Origin: Sphingorhabdus pulchriflava
Lineage (GTDB): Bacteria; Pseudomonadota; Alphaproteobacteria; Sphingomonadales; Sphingomonadaceae
Length of the DNA stretch: 64,000 nt
Reading direction: 5' to 3'
Assembly: GCF_003367235.1 (NCBI RefSeq)
Contig: NZ_QRGP01000001.1
Span: forward strand, 992,001-1,056,000
This document shows, in pieces, positions 2,787-41,697 of the stretch (position 1 is its first letter; every line of letters begins with the position of its first letter). The position numbers and the translations under genes are program-made. The notes under the pieces are model-generated. The model was not told where the DNA came from. It saw only the letters and a list, made by a program, of their open reading frames with translations, and ran no database searches.

Positions 2787-5700
2787 CAGCGAAATAAAGC
2801 CGCTCCAAAAGCTAAAGCCTGCCCAATTGCTGGCCACAGAGCCAGAGGAAAGCGTCTGGCTTAGTGCCTCTGCAGGTTCTGGCAAAACGCAGGTCTTAAC
2901 CGCGCGCGTGATCCGTTTGCTGCTGGCCGGTTCGCGTCCCGAACAGATTTTGTGCCTGACGTTCACCAAGGCCGCCGCTGCCGAAATGGAGGAACGCATC
3001 AACCGCATCTTGGCGGGCTGGGTGCAAATGAAGAACCCGCTACTTGCAAGCGATTTGATAGCCATCGGTGCCGATCATGGCCCCGAAATGCAGGCGAAAG
3101 CGCGCGAACTTTTTGCACAAGTGCTCGACGCCCCGGGCGGTGGATTGCAGATCATGACAATTCACAGTTTCTGCCAGTCACTGCTTGGCAGTTTTCCCGA
3201 AGAGGCGGGTATCGCCCCCGGGTTCGAACCTATTGATGACCGTAAAAGGCGCGAATTGCAGCGCGAGGTTCTTTCGGACCTGGTGACCGAGGCAGAGACG
3301 CAATCCAATGATTGGATCCTGACGAAACTGCAGCAATTGAGCCTTGATCTGGGGGAAGACGGGGCATGGAATTTTCTGAACCGTTGTGCACAACATTCAA
3401 ACGCCGTTGGCAAGGTTCCCGAAGACGACGGCGCGTTGGTTTTTGCCCGTTACCTTGTTGGCGAAACCGAAACGGGCACCATTGATGAAATCATGCAAAA
3501 CCAGTGCAGTGATGACATCATAGATCGCAATCTGCTTTTGACGGTGGCGGACTGCAACCGCCAGTGGAATACCAAAACGGGATTGGACCGTGCTACAAAA
3601 ATCGCGGACTGGCTGGCGTCTTCCACTGAAGACCGCGTCAGTAAGTTGGAAGAACTGCATAGCTGCTGGGCAACCAAAGAGGGAACTCTTGTAAAGCAGG
3701 GGCCCAAGAATATCGCAGCTTTTGAAGCGCTCGCGCTTGCTGCTTTGCAATGGTGCCGACGCTTGCTCGACCGCCGCGAATTATTGAAATATGCGGATCG
3801 TCTGGCATCAGCCCTACTTGTCGGAAAAGCCTATGCTGCTCGCTATGTTGCTGCCAAGCATGCGCAAGGACTGGTTGATTTTGACGACCTGATCGAAAAG
3901 ACGGCGGAGCTGCTGCGGCAGGGCCGGATGGCCGAATGGGTCCGATTCAAGCTCGACCGGCGGATAGACCATATATTGATCGATGAAGCGCAGGATACCA
4001 ATCAGCCACAATGGGATATTGTCGACGCGCTGGCCGACGATTTTTTCACCGGCAGCGGACAAAAAGCTGATCGTGCGCGAACTATATTTGCAGTGGGCGA
4101 CTTCAAACAGGCGATTTACGGATTTCAAGGCACCGACCCTGCAAAATATCGGGACGCTGGTGTCCGCTTTGGCCAAAAACTCTCTGACAGTGGCGGAGAG
4201 CTTAAAAAGCTCACGCTTTCCCAATCGTTCCGCTCGACCCAGCCCATCCTGTCTTTCGTCAACAAGGCTATCGAGGAAATCGGGCACCAGGGCTTAGGGC
4301 TCGACGAAATTGTGCCAGATCATGAAAGCGATAATCCCGACAGCGGCATGGTCGAATTATTCGGTCTTGTCCGTTCCGGCGACGATGAAGACGAAGACTC
4401 CGACGGTGACGAGGAGAAATGGGTCAGCGCCGAAAAACGCAAACTTGCGGAAAAACTGGCGACGCACATCAAGCAACTGATCGACGAAAAGCCTTATTTG
4501 ACCAGCACCGAAAAGCCTTTGGAGCCGGGCAATATCTTGGTGCTGTTGCGCAAGCGTTCGGACCTTGCTGCCCTGATCGTCGCGAGGCTGCACGCGCTGA
4601 ACGTACCAGTCGCTGGGATCGACAGGATGTTGCTGGGCGAGCAATTGGCGGTGCAGGACCTGCTGTCTGCAATCCGCTTTGTGCTGCAGCCGGGTGATGA
4701 CATGAGCCTTGCCTGTTTGCTGGTGTCTCCATTGATGGGCTGGTCACAGCAACAGCTTCTCGACCATGGCTATCGCGCAAAAGGCGAGGCTTTGTGGAAC
4801 CATTTGCGCAGTCAGGCGGTATTGGAAAATGATCTGCGTCCCTTGAGGGACATGCTGGCGGAGGCGGACTTTACTTCTCCCTATGCGTTTCTTGAAACTA
4901 TCCTTTCGGGGCCGACCCAAGGCAGGCGTAAATTTGCCGAACGGCTCGGAAATGAGACGCTGGTTCCGATAGAGGAACTGCTGAACATTGCCCTGCAATT
5001 TGCGCAGGATGGTGGAGGCACGCTGCAGGATTTTCTGGACTGGTTCGAACGCGATAATGGCGAAATAAAACGCGAAGGGCTGGTTTCTGCGGGCGAAGTC
5101 CGGATCATGACTGTGCATGGAGCCAAGGGGTTGCAGGCGCCAGTCGTTATCCTCGCTGACATTGCGACCGATCCCCTGAAATCGCGTGGGTCGGGATCGG
5201 GGCTGTCGTTAAAATTGGACCACGGGGCAGAATTGCCGATCCTGCCTTTTGGTACAGCGCTGCGAATCGGGCAGCTTGGTGTCCTGCACGACAGCCATAA
5301 AGTAGAAGAACTCAGAGAGCATAACCGCCTTCTTTACGTGGCACTGACGCGGGCCGAAGAGCGTCTGATTTTGACTGGTAGTCTCGGGTCGAAGTCCAAG
5401 ACCGAAAACAGTTGGTATCCAATTCTGGAAGCCGCATTCAACCGGCTCGGACATGAGTGGGAAGCATCGTCGCTTTGGGGTAGCACCATGCGCCTGGAGG
5501 GAAAGATGAGCAGCGTTGCGTCAACAGACATCACTGCCGCAGTCGAGGTCGCCGCCTCGGAAACACCCGCATGGCTTTTTTCGCCCGCTCCCATGGAGGC
5601 TCGACCGCCAAGACCTCTCGCCCCTTCAAGAATCGACGACGCCGATATTGGTGACGCGCCGGCTATCGAAAAAATCCGTATTGCGGCAGAGCGCGGTAAG

Positions 5701-6177
5701 TTGTTGCACGGCCTGTTTGAACGGGTTGAAGGTAATCGTGCCCACAGCTTTGCGAACGATGCCGCTCGCTGGCTCGCCCTGCGCGACAAATCCGGCGCGC
5801 ATGATCATCAGGAACTGATCCGCCAAGCTGCCACCGTGCTCGAAGACGACAGATGGTCTGAGATATTTTCGCCCACCGCGCGGGCAGAAGTGCCCATCGC
5901 CGCATTAGTCGGGGAAACCGTAGTTACAGGGCGTATCGACCGTTTGGTCGTAACTGAAGCATATGTCCAAATAGTCGATTTCAAATCGGGGCGCTTTGTG
6001 CCGCGAACCTCAGAAAAGGTGCCTGTTTCGCAATTGCGGCAAATGGCGCATTATGTTGCTGCTCTCGAGAAAATCTTTCCTGACCGGCGCGTTGAAGCCG
6101 CTTTACTTTATACGTACGAGCCCCATTTGCTGACTTTGACTGCCGCCGATCTGGAACCCTACAAACCCGCCTCTTGA
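2770..6177 (+). CDS. addA: AddA, UvrD-type helicase and nuclease subunit
   Basis: This is the superfamily 1 helicase-nuclease subunit of AddAB, 1135 residues. Walker A is SASAGSGKT at residues 32-40, followed by LTFTKAAAAEM (motif Ia), LIDEAQDTNQ (Walker B), GDFKQAIYGFQG (motif III), SQSFRST (motif IV), TVHGAKGLQAPVV (motif V) and LYVALTRAEERL (motif VI). The C-terminal RecB-type nuclease has LLHGLFERV, TGRIDRLV and IVDFKSG. All catalytic motifs are intact. It starts with three ATG codons inside the end of addB. An acidic stretch near residue 540 (DDEDEDSDGDEE) looks like a linker. Order addB-addA-trxA is common in alphaproteobacteria. Confidence 0.96.
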   Translation: MMMSSDSEIKPLQKLKPAQLLATEPEESVWLSASAGSGKTQVLTARVIRLLLAGSRPEQILCLTFTKAAAAEMEERINRILAGWVQMKNPLLASDLIAIGADHGPEMQAKARELFAQVLDAPGGGLQIMTIHSFCQSLLGSFPEEAGIAPGFEPIDDRKRRELQREVLSDLVTEAETQSNDWILTKLQQLSLDLGEDGAWNFLNRCAQHSNAVGKVPEDDGALVFARYLVGETETGTIDEIMQNQCSDDIIDRNLLLTVADCNRQWNTKTGLDRATKIADWLASSTEDRVSKLEELHSCWATKEGTLVKQGPKNIAAFEALALAALQWCRRLLDRRELLKYADRLASALLVGKAYAARYVAAKHAQGLVDFDDLIEKTAELLRQGRMAEWVRFKLDRRIDHILIDEAQDTNQPQWDIVDALADDFFTGSGQKADRARTIFAVGDFKQAIYGFQGTDPAKYRDAGVRFGQKLSDSGGELKKLTLSQSFRSTQPILSFVNKAIEEIGHQGLGLDEIVPDHESDNPDSGMVELFGLVRSGDDEDEDSDGDEEKWVSAEKRKLAEKLATHIKQLIDEKPYLTSTEKPLEPGNILVLLRKRSDLAALIVARLHALNVPVAGIDRMLLGEQLAVQDLLSAIRFVLQPGDDMSLACLLVSPLMGWSQQQLLDHGYRAKGEALWNHLRSQAVLENDLRPLRDMLAEADFTSPYAFLETILSGPTQGRRKFAERLGNETLVPIEELLNIALQFAQDGGGTLQDFLDWFERDNGEIKREGLVSAGEVRIMTVHGAKGLQAPVVILADIATDPLKSRGSGSGLSLKLDHGAELPILPFGTALRIGQLGVLHDSHKVEELREHNRLLYVALTRAEERLILTGSLGSKSKTENSWYPILEAAFNRLGHEWEASSLWGSTMRLEGKMSSVASTDITAAVEVAASETPAWLFSPAPMEARPPRPLAPSRIDDADIGDAPAIEKIRIAAERGKLLHGLFERVEGNRAHSFANDAARWLALRDKSGAHDHQELIRQAATVLEDDRWSEIFSPTARAEVPIAALVGETVVTGRIDRLVVTEAYVQIVDFKSGRFVPRTSEKVPVSQLRQMAHYVAALEKIFPDRRVEAALLYTYEPHLLTLTAADLEPYKPAS

Positions 6178-6207
6178 GCGGACAAGCAAATCTTTGCGGC
6201 TCGGTGC

Positions 6208-6236
6208 TTGCAAGTGCAGGGCAGGGACAATAGATT
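6208..6236 (+). promoter_or_regulatory. Possible housekeeping promoter for trxA
   Basis: TTGCAA at 6208-6213 and TAGATT at 6231-6236 are separated by 17 bases, each matching four of six consensus positions. The predicted start would lie near 6243, giving a short leader before the AAGGAG site (6248-6253) of trxA. A GANTC site (GATTC, 6233-6237), the CcrM methylation motif of alphaproteobacteria, overlaps the -10 box. This is a visual match only. Confidence 0.35.
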
Positions 6237-6260
6237 CAACACCAACTAAGGAGATATCCA

Positions 6261-6581
6261 ATGGCGACGAAAGCAGTTGGCGATAACAATTTTGACACCG
6301 ATGTTTTGGCTTCGGACAAACCCGTATTGGTCGATTTCTGGGCCGAATGGTGCGGCCCGTGTAAGATGATTGGCCCCAGCCTTGAGGAAATCAGCGAAGA
6401 ACTGGGCGATCAGGTTACCATCGCAAAGCTCAACATCGACGACCACCCCGATACACCCAGCAAATATGGTGTGCGCGGCATTCCAACGATGATCCTGTTC
6501 AAGGATGGGAAGATTGTCGACACCAAGGTGGGCGCTGCCCCCAAGGCTGCCATCAAGGGCTGGCTGGAAGCTGCGCTTTAA
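6261..6581 (+). CDS. trxA: Thioredoxin 1
   Basis: Thioredoxin is the cytoplasmic dithiol reductant for ribonucleotide reductase, methionine sulfoxide reductase and other proteins. At 106 residues it has the usual length. The active site WCGPCK has cysteines at 31 and 34, and the conserved cis-proline loop is GIPTMILF. A strong ribosome site (AAGGAGATATCC) precedes the ATG. It lies 83 bases after addA and probably has its own promoter. Its stop overlaps the stop of the convergent argJ by 4 bases (TTAA shared). Confidence 0.97.
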   Translation: MATKAVGDNNFDTDVLASDKPVLVDFWAEWCGPCKMIGPSLEEISEELGDQVTIAKLNIDDHPDTPSKYGVRGIPTMILFKDGKIVDTKVGAAPKAAIKGWLEAAL

Positions 6582-36609: not shown

Positions 36610-37788
36610 ATGGCTGACCCTACCACTACGCGCGCGCCCACCGGAGCGACAGGCGTATTGGTTTTGGCCAGTGGAGAGGTGATCTGGGGTAGGGGCTTTG
36701 GCGCAGAGGGTAGCGCGGTAGGCGAAGTCTGCTTCAATACCGCGATGACCGGCTATCAGGAAGTGATGACCGACCCGAGCTATGCCGGGCAGATCATCAA
36801 CTTCACATTCCCGCATATCGGCAATGTCGGCACCAACCCCGAGGATATAGAGGCGACCAACCCGCATGCCTTGGGTGCCATCGTGCGGCAAGATGTCACC
36901 AGCCCCTCCAATTTCCGCGCGACGCAGCATTTCCGCGACTGGATGGCCGCAAATGGCCGGATCGGGCTTTCGGGCATTGATACCCGCGCGCTGACCCGGC
37001 TGATCCGCCTGAAAGGCGCGCCCAATGCGGTGATTGCGCATAGTGCCGATGGCAAGTTCGACATCCCCGCCTTGCTGGCGCAGGCAAAGGCCTGGCCGGG
37101 GCTGGAGGGGATGGATCTGGCGAAAGATGTTACCACCTTGCAGACCTATAGCTGGGAGGATGGGCTTTGGAAGCTGGGGCAGGGTTATGCCACAAAAGCT
37201 GACAAACCTGACCTATGTTCCGCCAAGCGGCCAAAAGTCGTTGCCATTGATTATGGTATAAAACGCAATATATTGCGGAACTTAGTTGATACTGGTTGCG
37301 AAGTAACCGTCGTCCCCGCGACCGCGAGCTTTGACGAGATCATGGCGCATCAGCCCGATGGCCTGTTCCTTTCCAACGGCCCCGGCGATCCGGCGGCGAC
37401 GGGGGTTTATTCGGTGCCCGTCATCAAGGCTTGGCTCGAAACCAAAAAGCCGCTGTTTGGCATCTGCCTTGGCCACCAGATGCTCGCGCTCGCGGTGGGT
37501 GCGAAGACCGAAAAGATGCATCAGGGCCACCGCGGCGCGAACCATCCGGTGAAGCGGCTTTCTGACGGTGCGGTAGAGATTACCAGCATGAACCACGGCT
37601 TTGCGGTGAATGCGGAGACCTTGCCCGCCAACGCCCGCGCAACGCACACCAGCCTGTTCGACGGCAGCAATTGCGGTTTTGAACTCACCGACCAGCCCGC
37701 CTTCAGCGTACAATACCACCCCGAAGCAAGCCCCGGCCCGCAGGACAGCCATTATCTCTTTGAGAAATTTGCGGGGATGATGGCGTGA
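36610..37788 (+). CDS. carA: Carbamoyl-phosphate synthase small subunit
   Basis: The glutamine-hydrolysing subunit that feeds ammonia to CarB for arginine and pyrimidine synthesis. The 392 residues include the N-terminal CarA domain (GEVCFNTAMTGYQEVMTDPS) and a class I amidotransferase with nucleophile Cys in GICLGHQMLAL, plus FSVQYHPEASPGP with His and Glu of the triad. AAGGA precedes the ATG. It is divergent from yqeY; TTGACC at 36531 could be part of its promoter, but the -10 is poor. Unusually, a gene on the opposite strand separates it from carB. Confidence 0.97.
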   Translation: MADPTTTRAPTGATGVLVLASGEVIWGRGFGAEGSAVGEVCFNTAMTGYQEVMTDPSYAGQIINFTFPHIGNVGTNPEDIEATNPHALGAIVRQDVTSPSNFRATQHFRDWMAANGRIGLSGIDTRALTRLIRLKGAPNAVIAHSADGKFDIPALLAQAKAWPGLEGMDLAKDVTTLQTYSWEDGLWKLGQGYATKADKPDLCSAKRPKVVAIDYGIKRNILRNLVDTGCEVTVVPATASFDEIMAHQPDGLFLSNGPGDPAATGVYSVPVIKAWLETKKPLFGICLGHQMLALAVGAKTEKMHQGHRGANHPVKRLSDGAVEITSMNHGFAVNAETLPANARATHTSLFDGSNCGFELTDQPAFSVQYHPEASPGPQDSHYLFEKFAGMMA

Positions 37789-37791
37789 CGC

Positions 37792-38313
37792 TCAAAGGTC
37801 GGAAAAAACGGCGTTCGCTTCGTGGAAGGCACGGAACAAATGCCTGACCAAATACAATCTAGTGTTACCCCAAAATATGGCGATATCGTCGTGATAGTCG
37901 CACTCGAGTGCCGTTCCATTGATGAACATGGCTTGCGGGCTGTATCCAGATATAACGCAAAAAGTGAACTTGTTGTTCTCGAATATTCTTTTGCCGCTAG
38001 GAACGTGGCAGGATGCATTTCGGCAATCGTTGATCAAATCTGTAATGTCCTTCGCTTTCGCCGACTGAGGAATGTCGTCAGTAAAAGTGACTCTCAAGTT
38101 CTTTTTTGCCGCCTTTTGAAGCACGTCGTTCAGTTCGATAAGAACTTGGGTGATGCACGGTTGAAAATAAGGGCTTCTGCCATCAATCGGGTTGAAAATC
38201 GGGCTTTCGAAAATTCTTTTAATGATCATCAAGGACGTTTCAGCGTCGCGGTCACCGTAATCGGCCGGATTATCAACAGTTTTTCTCATATCAGATTCCG
38301 TTTGTTTCGGCAT
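37792..38313 (-). CDS. Putative HEPN-motif protein inserted between carA and carB
   Basis: 173 residues from ATG 38313, read against carA and carB. The helical segment DITDLINDCRNASCHVPSGK carries RNASCH (Arg98-His103), which fits the R-x4-6-H motif of HEPN RNases, with the usual polar residue after Arg. The preceding helix QPCITQVLIELNDVLQKAAK and a C-terminal helix LYLVRHLFRAFHEAN fit a HEPN-like bundle. The DNA is visibly more AT-rich than the flanking car genes, suggesting acquisition. HEPN proteins are frequent RNase toxins or phage-defence effectors, but no antitoxin or partner is visible. Homology is inferred from the motif alone. Confidence 0.6.
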   Translation of the reverse strand: MPKQTESDMRKTVDNPADYGDRDAETSLMIIKRIFESPIFNPIDGRSPYFQPCITQVLIELNDVLQKAAKKNLRVTFTDDIPQSAKAKDITDLINDCRNASCHVPSGKRIFENNKFTFCVISGYSPQAMFINGTALECDYHDDIAIFWGNTRLYLVRHLFRAFHEANAVFSDL

Positions 38314-38343
38314 CAAACTTTAAGAACATGGGGTTTTTAAGCA

Positions 38344-41300
38344 ATGCCCAAACGCACTGACATCCAATCCATCCTCATCATCGGCGCTGGCCCGATCATT
38401 ATCGGCCAGGCGTGCGAATTTGACTATTCGGGGACGCAGGCGTGCAAGGCGCTGCGCGAGGAGGGCTATCGCATCATCCTCGTCAATTCCAACCCGGCGA
38501 CGATCATGACCGATCCGGAAATGGTCGGCGACAATGGCTCCACCTATGTCGAGCCGATCACGCCGGAGGTGGTCGCCAAGATCATCGAAACCGAGCGCGC
38601 CAAATATCCGCATGAGAAGATGGCCGTGCTGCCTACCATGGGCGGGCAAACCGCGCTGAACACCGCGCTGGCGCTGGAGGCCAATGGCACGCTGGCCAAA
38701 TTTGATGTCGAAATGATCGGCGCGACCGCCGAAGCCATCGATAAGGCCGAAGACCGCATCAAATTCCGCAATGCGATGGACAAAATCGGCCTCGAATCCG
38801 CGCGTTCAGGGATTGCCCATACGCTCGAAGAGGCGCTCACCGTGCTCGAACGCACCGGGCTGCCCTCAATCATCCGCCCCAGCTTCACCATGGGCGGCAC
38901 AGGCGGCGGGATTGCCTATAATCGGGATGAATTCATCCAGATCGTCACCGGTGGCCTCGATGCCAGCCCGACGACCGAGGTGCTGATCGAGGAATCGCTG
39001 CTCGGTTGGAAAGAATATGAGATGGAGGTTGTCCGCGATAAGAAGGACAATGCCATCATCATCTGCTCGATCGAAAATGTCGATCCGATGGGCGTGCATA
39101 CCGGCGACAGCATCACCGTCGCCCCCGCTCTGACGCTGACTGATAAGGAATATCAGATCATGCGCAACGCGAGCATCGCGACGCTGCGTGAAATCGGAGT
39201 CGAAACAGGCGGTTCGAACGTACAGTTCGCAGTCAATCCGAAGGATGGCCGCCTGATCGTGATCGAAATGAACCCGCGCGTGTCGCGGTCTTCGGCGCTG
39301 GCATCGAAGGCCACCGGCTTCCCGATTGCCAAGGTCGCAGCGAAACTGGCGGTGGGCTACACGCTCGACGAAATCGACAACGACATCACCGGCGCAACAC
39401 CCGCCTCGTTCGAACCGACCATCGACTATGTCGTCACCAAAATCCCGCGTTTCGCCTTTGAAAAGTTCAAAGGTTCGGAACCTTTGCTGTCGACCGCAAT
39501 GAAATCGGTCGGCGAAGTGATGGCGATTGGCCGCAACATCCACGAATCGATGCAAAAGGCGCTGCGCGGCCTTGAAACCGGGCTGTCGGGCTTCAACTAT
39601 GTCGATGCGCTCAAAGGCGCGCATAAGGATGAGCTGGCGGCCGCGCTCAGCCGTGCGACGCCCGACCGGCTGCTCGTCGCGGCGCAGGCGCTGCGCGAAG
39701 GCATGTCGGTATCCGAGGTGCACCAATATTCGAAATTCGATCCCTGGTTCCTCGAACGGCTTGCCGAAATCGTCGAGGCGGAAAATGAGGTCAAGGCCAA
39801 TGGCCTGCCGCAGGATGCGGAAGGGATGCGTCGCCTGAAAGCCATGGGTTTCAGCGATAAACGGCTTGCCTTCCTTGCACTCGAATCCGCGCATGTCCGC
39901 CCCGGAATGGAATCTGCAATCCGCCGCGGTTCGGGCCTGATCCGCGAGGCTATCGTCGCGATGACCGGCGGGATTACCGAGGCCGAGGTGCGCAAGGCAC
40001 GTCACAAGCTGGGCGTCCGCCCTGTGTTCAAGCGCATTGACACCTGCGCGGCGGAATTTGAGGCGAAAACGCCTTACATGTATTCGACCTATGAGGCCCC
40101 GATCTTTGGCGAGCCTGAATGCGAGGCGCAGCCCAGCGACCGCGAAAAGGTCGTTATCCTGGGTGGTGGGCCGAACCGGATCGGGCAGGGAATCGAGTTC
40201 GATTATTGCTGCGTCCACGCCTGCTTCGCGCTTGAGGAAGCTGGCTATGAAACAATCATGGTCAACTGCAACCCGGAAACGGTTTCGACCGATTATGACA
40301 CTAGCGATCGTCTGTATTTTGAGCCGCTGACCGCTGAAGATGTCCTAGAAATCCTGCATGTCGAGCAGTCGAAGGGCAAGCTGAAGGGCGTTATCGTCCA
40401 GTTTGGCGGGCAGACGCCACTCAATCTGGCGAAAGCTCTCGAGGATGCGGGCATTCCGATCCTCGGCACCTCGCCAGACGCCATCGACCTTGCCGAAGAC
40501 CGTGAGCGTTTTGCCGCGCTGATCAACAAGCTGAAGCTCAAACAGCCCGAAAATGGCATTGCACGCAGCCGGGAAGAGGCGATCAAGGTTGCCGAAACCA
40601 TCGGCTATCCCGTGCTGATGCGGCCGAGCTACGTTTTGGGCGGCCGTGCGATGGAGATTGTCGACACGCAGGCGCAGCTCGAAAACTATATCGAAACGGC
40701 AGTGCGTGTTTCAGGTGACAGCCCCGTGCTGATCGACCGCTATCTGCGCGATGCAGTAGAGGTCGATGTCGATTGTGTTGCCGATGGCGATGACGTCGTG
40801 GTGGCCGGCATTTTGCAACATATCGAAGAAGCTGGCGTCCATTCGGGCGACAGCGCCTGTACGCTGCCGCCCTATAATCTGCCCGAGGAAATCATCGCCG
40901 AAATCCGCCGTCAGGCGGAGGTTCTGGCGCGTGCGCTGAAGGTCAAAGGCCTGATGAATGCGCAGTTCGCGGTAAAAGACGGGCTGGTCTATCTGATCGA
41001 AGTCAACCCGCGCGCTTCACGGACCGTGCCTTTTGTTGCGAAAGCCATCGGCGCCCCCATCGCCAAGATTGCCGCGCGCGTGATGGCGGGCGAGAAGCTG
41101 AAAGACCTGCCGCCAATCGATCTCGACATCGATTATATCGCGGTCAAGGAAGCCGTTTTCCCGTTCAACCGCTTCCCCGGCGTCGACCCCGTGCTTTCGC
41201 CAGAAATGAAATCGACGGGCGAAGTGATGGGCATCGACAAGGATTTTGCGATGGCCTTTGCCAAGGCGCAGCTGGGGGCCGGAATGACTTTGCCGCAATC

Positions 41301-41697
41301 GGGCAAGTTGTTCGTTTCGGTGAAAGACAGCGACAAGCCGCATATCGTGCCTGCAGTCGCAAAGCTGATCGAAATGGGCTTTGCCGTTTGCGCCACCGGT
41401 GGAACCGCCGATTATCTGCAAGGGCAGGGGATCGCCGTCGAACGCGTGAACAAAGTGGCACAGGGCCGGCCGCATATCGTCGACAAGATTATCGATGGCG
41501 AAATCGCTTTGGTGTTCAACACCACCGAGGGTTGGCAGAGCCTGAAAGACAGCGAAGACATTCGCCGTTCGGCGCTGGTGAACAAGGTCAGTTACTTCAC
41601 AACGGCCAGTGCATCGCTCGCCGCGACAGAGGCTATCGAGGCGTTGCGGACGAGAAAACTTGAAGTTTGCACGCTTCAGGACTATCATAAGGTCTGA
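38344..41697 (+). CDS. carB: Carbamoyl-phosphate synthase large subunit
   Basis: CarB makes carbamoyl phosphate from bicarbonate, ammonia and two ATP. The 1117 residues hold two homologous ATP-grasp halves, seen as [20 protein letters not shown] and [20 protein letters not shown], with [20 protein letters not shown] and [20 protein letters not shown] in the metal-binding loops. The C-terminal MGS-like allosteric domain begins near [13 protein letters not shown]. No defect is visible despite the insertion upstream. Its own promoter must lie in or beyond the antisense gene before it, unless transcription runs through from carA. Confidence 0.98.

Follow-up and report, generated by a model that had tools for sequence, protein, structure and literature searches.

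RESULTS

A solitary gene on the opposite strand separates carA from carB

The stretch of DNA analysed here (the window; 64,000 nucleotides of contig NZ_QRGP01000001.1 of Sphingorhabdus pulchriflava) carries carA and carB, which encode the two subunits of carbamoyl-phosphate synthase, separated by a gap that is filled by a single HEPN-like gene in antisense orientation (Table 1). The coding frame begins with an ATG at 38313 and ends with a stop codon at 37792–37794; a TTG located 3 bases upstream of the ATG would add one residue. The stop lies 3 bp from the stop of carA and the start 30 bp from the ATG of carB. The gene has a GC content of 0.452 and a GC3 of 0.540, compared with a GC content of 0.558 for the window and a GC3 of 0.71–0.72 for carA/carB. 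An earlier note, made from the sequence alone, had described an AT-rich antisense gene of this length filling the gap, which the open reading frame and the GC content (45% versus 56%) bear out; its description of the gene as solitary, acquired and without an obvious antitoxin also fits, the gap having no room for another gene. No neighbouring gene in the window gives a functional link to defence.

Table 1. Coordinates (window positions) and supporting evidence for the features of the carA–carB region.
Feature	Position	Strand	Basis
carA, carbamoyl-phosphate synthase small subunit	36610..37788	+	ORF and homology across relatives
carA–carB cassette slot, 555 bp here	37789..38343	.	69-locus gap comparison; wholesale content replacement between close relatives
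HEPN-like solo gene	37792..38313	-	173 codons plus stop; ORF, tblastn and profile-search relatives, AlphaFold2 model
β-rich insert (predicted), residues 119–154, between helices 3 and 4	37852..37959	-	AlphaFold2, moderate confidence; weaker in the second model
RNASCH, residues 98–103, putative RNase motif (RNxxxH), end of helix 3	38005..38022	-	Invariance in 7 sequences; model helix 90–102
D63-x3-K67, helix 2, similar to the HEPN Ex3[KR] motif	38113..38127	-	D63 invariant in 7; helix 50–70; PMC3710099
carB, carbamoyl-phosphate synthase large subunit	38344..41697	+	ORF and homology across relatives

We regard the minus-strand frame as a real gene because it has relatives on a plasmid, on IMG/VR contigs and in other genomes; throughout, these were found by the minus-strand frame only, and not by the overlapping plus-strand ORF. 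That ORF (37822–38340) was dismissed as a shadow since relatives match the minus frame only, and its single match (L022; 33% over 79 aa) is a mirror of the true homology. On the strand opposite the gene (37789–38340, plus), an open frame of 183 codons runs from the carA stop to within 3 bp of carB, and comparable open antisense frames lie in the carA–carB gaps of three other loci (L068, L078 and L081). An open plus frame across the whole gap has a probability of approximately 0.28 under host codon usage and of 0.003 under a base-composition model; given the former value, and as the copy in a second genome (G229, below) is not open, a second overlapping coding frame is not claimed.

A putative RNase motif is conserved in divergent relatives

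The sequence RNASCH is located at Arg98–His103, as the earlier note had stated. Anantharaman et al., in their survey of HEPN domains, place the Rx4–6H motif at the end of helix 3 or where the loop to helix 4 begins; the arginine is typically followed by N, D or H, and many HEPN families, though not all, have an acidic Ex3[KR] motif in helix 2 (PMC3710099). Taken as a HEPN signature, the bare pattern carries no weight: R-x4–6-H is at chance level, being present in 50% of shuffles of the protein, the narrower R[NDH]x3–5H is present in 11%, and two further Rx4–6H matches occur in the protein itself, at R152 and R157. The motif is raised above chance by its conservation, since R98, C102 and H103 are kept in seven divergent sequences (the others being 29–45% identical to the window protein), with N or D at residue 99 in every one of them. 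D63 is likewise invariant in all seven, as an aspartate where HEPN proteins usually have a glutamate, and is followed at +4 by K or R in six. S106, L58–I59, T78–D79–D80, L93, G123, D142–D143, G149, Y154–L155 and R157 are also invariant in this set. Conservation of Arg98 and His103 thus holds in every relative outside Spirosoma, but fails in a remote branch of Spirosoma sequences, which have lost or displaced the motif (RNSAH or RQMAY).

Predicted structure and library searches

Two AlphaFold2 models were obtained, each built on only 5–6 sequences (mean pLDDT 75 and 69). The model of the window protein, made with five relatives (pLDDT 74.7, pTM 0.72), is predicted with moderate confidence to be a four-helix bundle comprising residues 24–35, 50–70, 90–102 and 155–171, with R98–H103 positioned at the end of the third helix. 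The second model, of an IMG/VR relative (L025), has the same helix layout. When the models were compared with known structures using VIA-align, HepT ranked first for both: 6m6w for the window model (Z 6.7, rmsd 3.8, 106 residues) and 5yep for the L025 model (Z 7.3, rmsd 3.5, 110 residues). Further down, both lists include the HEPN chains 1wty, 1wol and AbiV, together with 2hsb, 3jrt and IRE1 for the window model and sacsin for the L025 model; in one list HEPN chains occupy 7 of the first 8 rows, in the other all of the first 5. The Z-scores are below 8 for both models, values that helical bundles can attain fortuitously, and a designed four-helix bundle attains Z 6.9 in the L025 list. Foldseek returned no significant E-value for either model, and a BFVD fold search with the HEPN-like protein gave no significant match. 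A HEPN-like helical bundle is predicted, with HepT as the leading match, but the scores of both models are too modest to settle HEPN membership. We consider that the gene product probably has a HEPN fold and, with a step less confidence, that it is likely to be an active RNase, both as a matter of judgement rather than computation.

No Pfam or NCBIfam model, HEPN included, matches the protein, PADLOC gave no match for the seven family members scanned, and a PDB sequence search yielded no relevant match. The weak PHROG matches of the gene family are all to families without known function. Comparison by hhalign with HepT and HEPN sets gave no signal, nor did the HEPN–HepT positive control. By sequence comparison the protein family is absent from the libraries searched and previously unnamed, although the kinds of element concerned, a HEPN-type effector on mobile DNA and a cassette slot between conserved genes, are already known.

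Relatives lie in mobile contexts

By tblastn, a relative with 39.5% identity was located on a MOBQ plasmid (5.8 kb) from Acinetobacter schindleri, and weaker ones on Spirosoma plasmids. On the Acinetobacter plasmid (L018:4570–5679) the relative adjoins an annotated pair of HigA antitoxin and RelE/ParE toxin. The Spirosoma oryzicola plasmids (L019: 685–999, 3421–3744 and 6001–6423; L020) carry several diverged paralogues; the R...H motif is broken or shifted in the three that were read, which suggests, at the level of sequence, that these are inactive or re-purposed copies. In IMG/VR, relatives were found on four contigs that carry phage genes, one of them 48% identical and adjoining an integrase gene. 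On two near-identical phage contigs (L099 and L100, approximately 4800–6470), the family gene lies just downstream of a DUF1902 gene, at a site bounded by a tail-spike-like gene and a large virion-protein-like gene, where accessory genes are typically located.

Among genomes of the order, the gene family is present in 2 of 396, in line with the expectation that the gene would not be found at this locus across the order. The survey took in 396 genomes from the order, 397 from the bacterial family, 385 from the class and 398 from the phylum; it brought to light G229 and G605 as further carriers, both belonging to the same bacterial family. The G229 copy, in another genus, also lies antisense in the carA–carB gap in the same orientation as the window gene, and the two share the neighbourhood rpoD-dnaG-yqeY-carA-carB-greA. 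The G605 copy (L027:514–1014) is located between clpP and clpX, another tight housekeeping pair, and is codirectional with both. Each of the seven family genes checked is richer in AT than the DNA around it. A tree of the insert could be built, as the earlier note had proposed, but the window, G229, L098 and clpP–clpX copies form an unresolved group, which fits either two entries into the slot or shared descent.

The phage and E. coli collections contained no relative and the plasmid collection three convincing records. Matches at E > 0.04 in one of the searches were treated as noise, and a Burkholderia match (H4; E ~1) was dropped because an annotated gene occupies the other strand there. The 41 relatives searched contained no HepT-family gene, a result that is uninformative on the HEPN-like gene itself. 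Overall, the gene family is rare, scattered and, judging by its contexts, mobile.

The carA–carB gap is a variable cassette slot

Comparison of the gap between relatives, also proposed in the earlier note, revealed a variable slot with unrelated occupants. Across 69 loci (L029–L097), which represent different species rather than strains, the gap is 15 bp or less, overlaps included, in 15, 16–200 bp in 24, 201–400 bp in 7 and more than 400 bp in 23, reaching 1806 bp at the longest. Occupants include PIN/FitA-type toxin–antitoxin pairs, DUF559, RraB-like and DUF695-like proteins, an outer-membrane barrel, DUF6680, DUF4177 and a recurring family with a PASDRIV motif. The closely related genome G033, whose CarA is 96% identical to that of the window, has a wholly different gene in the gap; identity between the two breaks off within the final codons of carA and returns at the carB ATG. 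This sharp flank identity, together with the lack of a mobility gene at the slot, fits entry by flanking homologous recombination. The carA–carB gap of the order is a general variable cassette slot, with different whole genes between two conserved ones as in minimal mobile elements, and it follows that the splitting of carA from carB is not peculiar to the HEPN-like gene. Unrelated open reading frames have also been recorded between carA and carB in Xanthomonas and Pseudomonas (PMC4619228).

Two features of other occupants were observed. The recurring family is found in seven gaps (L029, L050, L063, L069, L078, L082 and L089); its members vary in the N-terminal half, conserve the motif PA[SA][DN]R[IV]V and are hydrophobic at the C-terminus, and those tested gave no family match. 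In five gaps (L030, L048, L050, L063 and L084), plus-strand cargo genes begin on the carA stop or immediately behind it, frequently as ATGA, and their own stop falls on the start of carB (TAATG), an arrangement suggestive of selection for translational coupling.

DISCUSSION

Proposed function and alternatives

The explanation that we favour, with some reserve, from the models and by analogy, is that the gene belongs to a rare new family of solo HEPN-fold RNases that move as single-gene cargo, an abortive-infection or growth-arrest effector being the likeliest role. The product would be a metal-independent endoribonuclease acting as a dimer, with a putative active site formed by Arg98 and His103 and with Asp63 of helix 2 alongside, and the β-rich insert between helices 3 and 4 may sense a trigger. 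The gene would travel alone between plasmids, prophages and chromosomal slots, and probably entered the carA–carB slot, antisense, by homologous recombination in the flanking genes. By analogy with Tha (see below), the effector may be conditional, staying silent during normal growth with no antitoxin of its own and cleaving RNA once triggered, for example by a phage product.

The earlier note had named three outcomes that would count against its reading, namely a predicted fold lacking the helical bundle, a motif not conserved in homologues and a gene present at this locus across the order; all three were examined, and the reading is refuted by none and partly supported. A four-helix protein outside the HEPN group, with another function and carrying RNxxxH by chance, would account for the sub-threshold fold scores, the missing profile match and the frequency of the motif in shuffles; we think it improbable, as HEPN chains dominate the top fold rows of both models, and the position of the motif, the polar residue after its arginine and the acidic residue of helix 2 all fit HEPN. 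A HEPN-like protein that binds RNA or regulates without nuclease activity, or that has been domesticated as housekeeping cargo, appears similarly doubtful. Inactive HEPN families such as MtlR have been described (PMC3710099), and the Spirosoma relatives persist, with several paralogues on one plasmid, despite a lost or shifted histidine; in the branch of the window protein, however, R, [ND], C and H stay unchanged even where identity falls to 29%, as would suit an active site.

In the other alternative, the gene would be the toxin half of a HepT–MntA-like toxin–antitoxin system whose partner is elsewhere or lost, leaving an orphan or mild toxin here. HepT toxins are the best fold matches, and a toxin–antitoxin setting is hinted at by the HigBA genes next to the Acinetobacter copy and by the DUF1902 gene upstream of two phage-contig copies. 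Yet HigBA is already a complete pair, the two phage contigs, being near identical, amount to a single case, and no partner is conserved across contexts, the gene standing alone both in carA–carB and between clpP and clpX; we therefore judge an orphan toxin unlikely also.

A more specific proposal, again by analogy with Tha, is that the carAB operon itself acts as the antidote, head-on transcription from carA to carB silencing the antisense RNase gene. Once carAB transcription stopped, through pyrimidine and arginine repletion or phage take-over, the RNase would be released. We consider this very improbable; if true, an essential biosynthetic operon would be the transcriptional antitoxin of a foreign toxin, and the antisense placement would allow a clear-cut test of operon transcription as a substitute for an antitoxin. 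The present analysis adds an unannotated, putatively HEPN-type family of solo proteins, overlooked by the profile libraries searched and carried by plasmids, phage contigs and chromosomes alike, and the carA–carB gap of the order is a promising place to look for small genes of defence or toxin type.

Comparison with known systems

The HepT structures (5yep, 6m6u, 6m6w and 7bxo), the best fold matches of both models, have the RNxxxH motif in common with the window protein. HepT has an adjacent gene for the MntA nucleotidyltransferase, whereas the window gene has none and only 3 bp and 30 bp to its flanks; the window protein also has a longer predicted insert between helices 3 and 4, and shows no similarity to HepT in a sequence test of low power. 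The integron-cassette HEPN protein 3jrt (Z 4.8) and AbiV (9bj7; Z 3.8 and 5.0 in the lists of the two models) provide precedents for HEPN on mobile DNA or in abortive infection and appear in the fold lists, but have no sequence match to the window protein.

Closer in arrangement is Tha, a HEPN RNase of Staphylococcus prophages with an RNSIMH motif (R265NSIMH270), which acts as a single-gene anti-phage defence and is switched on by phage minor tail proteins; its gene lies antisense within a noncontiguous operon and is kept in check in part by head-on transcription (PMC11087260). Tha and the window gene are alike in encoding a HEPN or HEPN-like effector with RNxxxH, in lying antisense between genes and in belonging to families present on phage DNA. 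They differ in that Tha has 301 residues, a C-terminal HEPN domain and a prophage-encoded inhibitor, as opposed to 173 residues with a predicted β-rich insert, with no sequence relation established.

For the slot, the nearest parallels are the minimal mobile elements of Neisseria, in which whole-gene cassettes are swapped between two conserved genes (PMC3898611), and the carA-orf-carB arrangements of Xanthomonas and Pseudomonas. These concern other lineages and other cargo; in the case described here the cargo is antisense and recombination is only a candidate route, but the layout of a cassette between conserved genes is the same.
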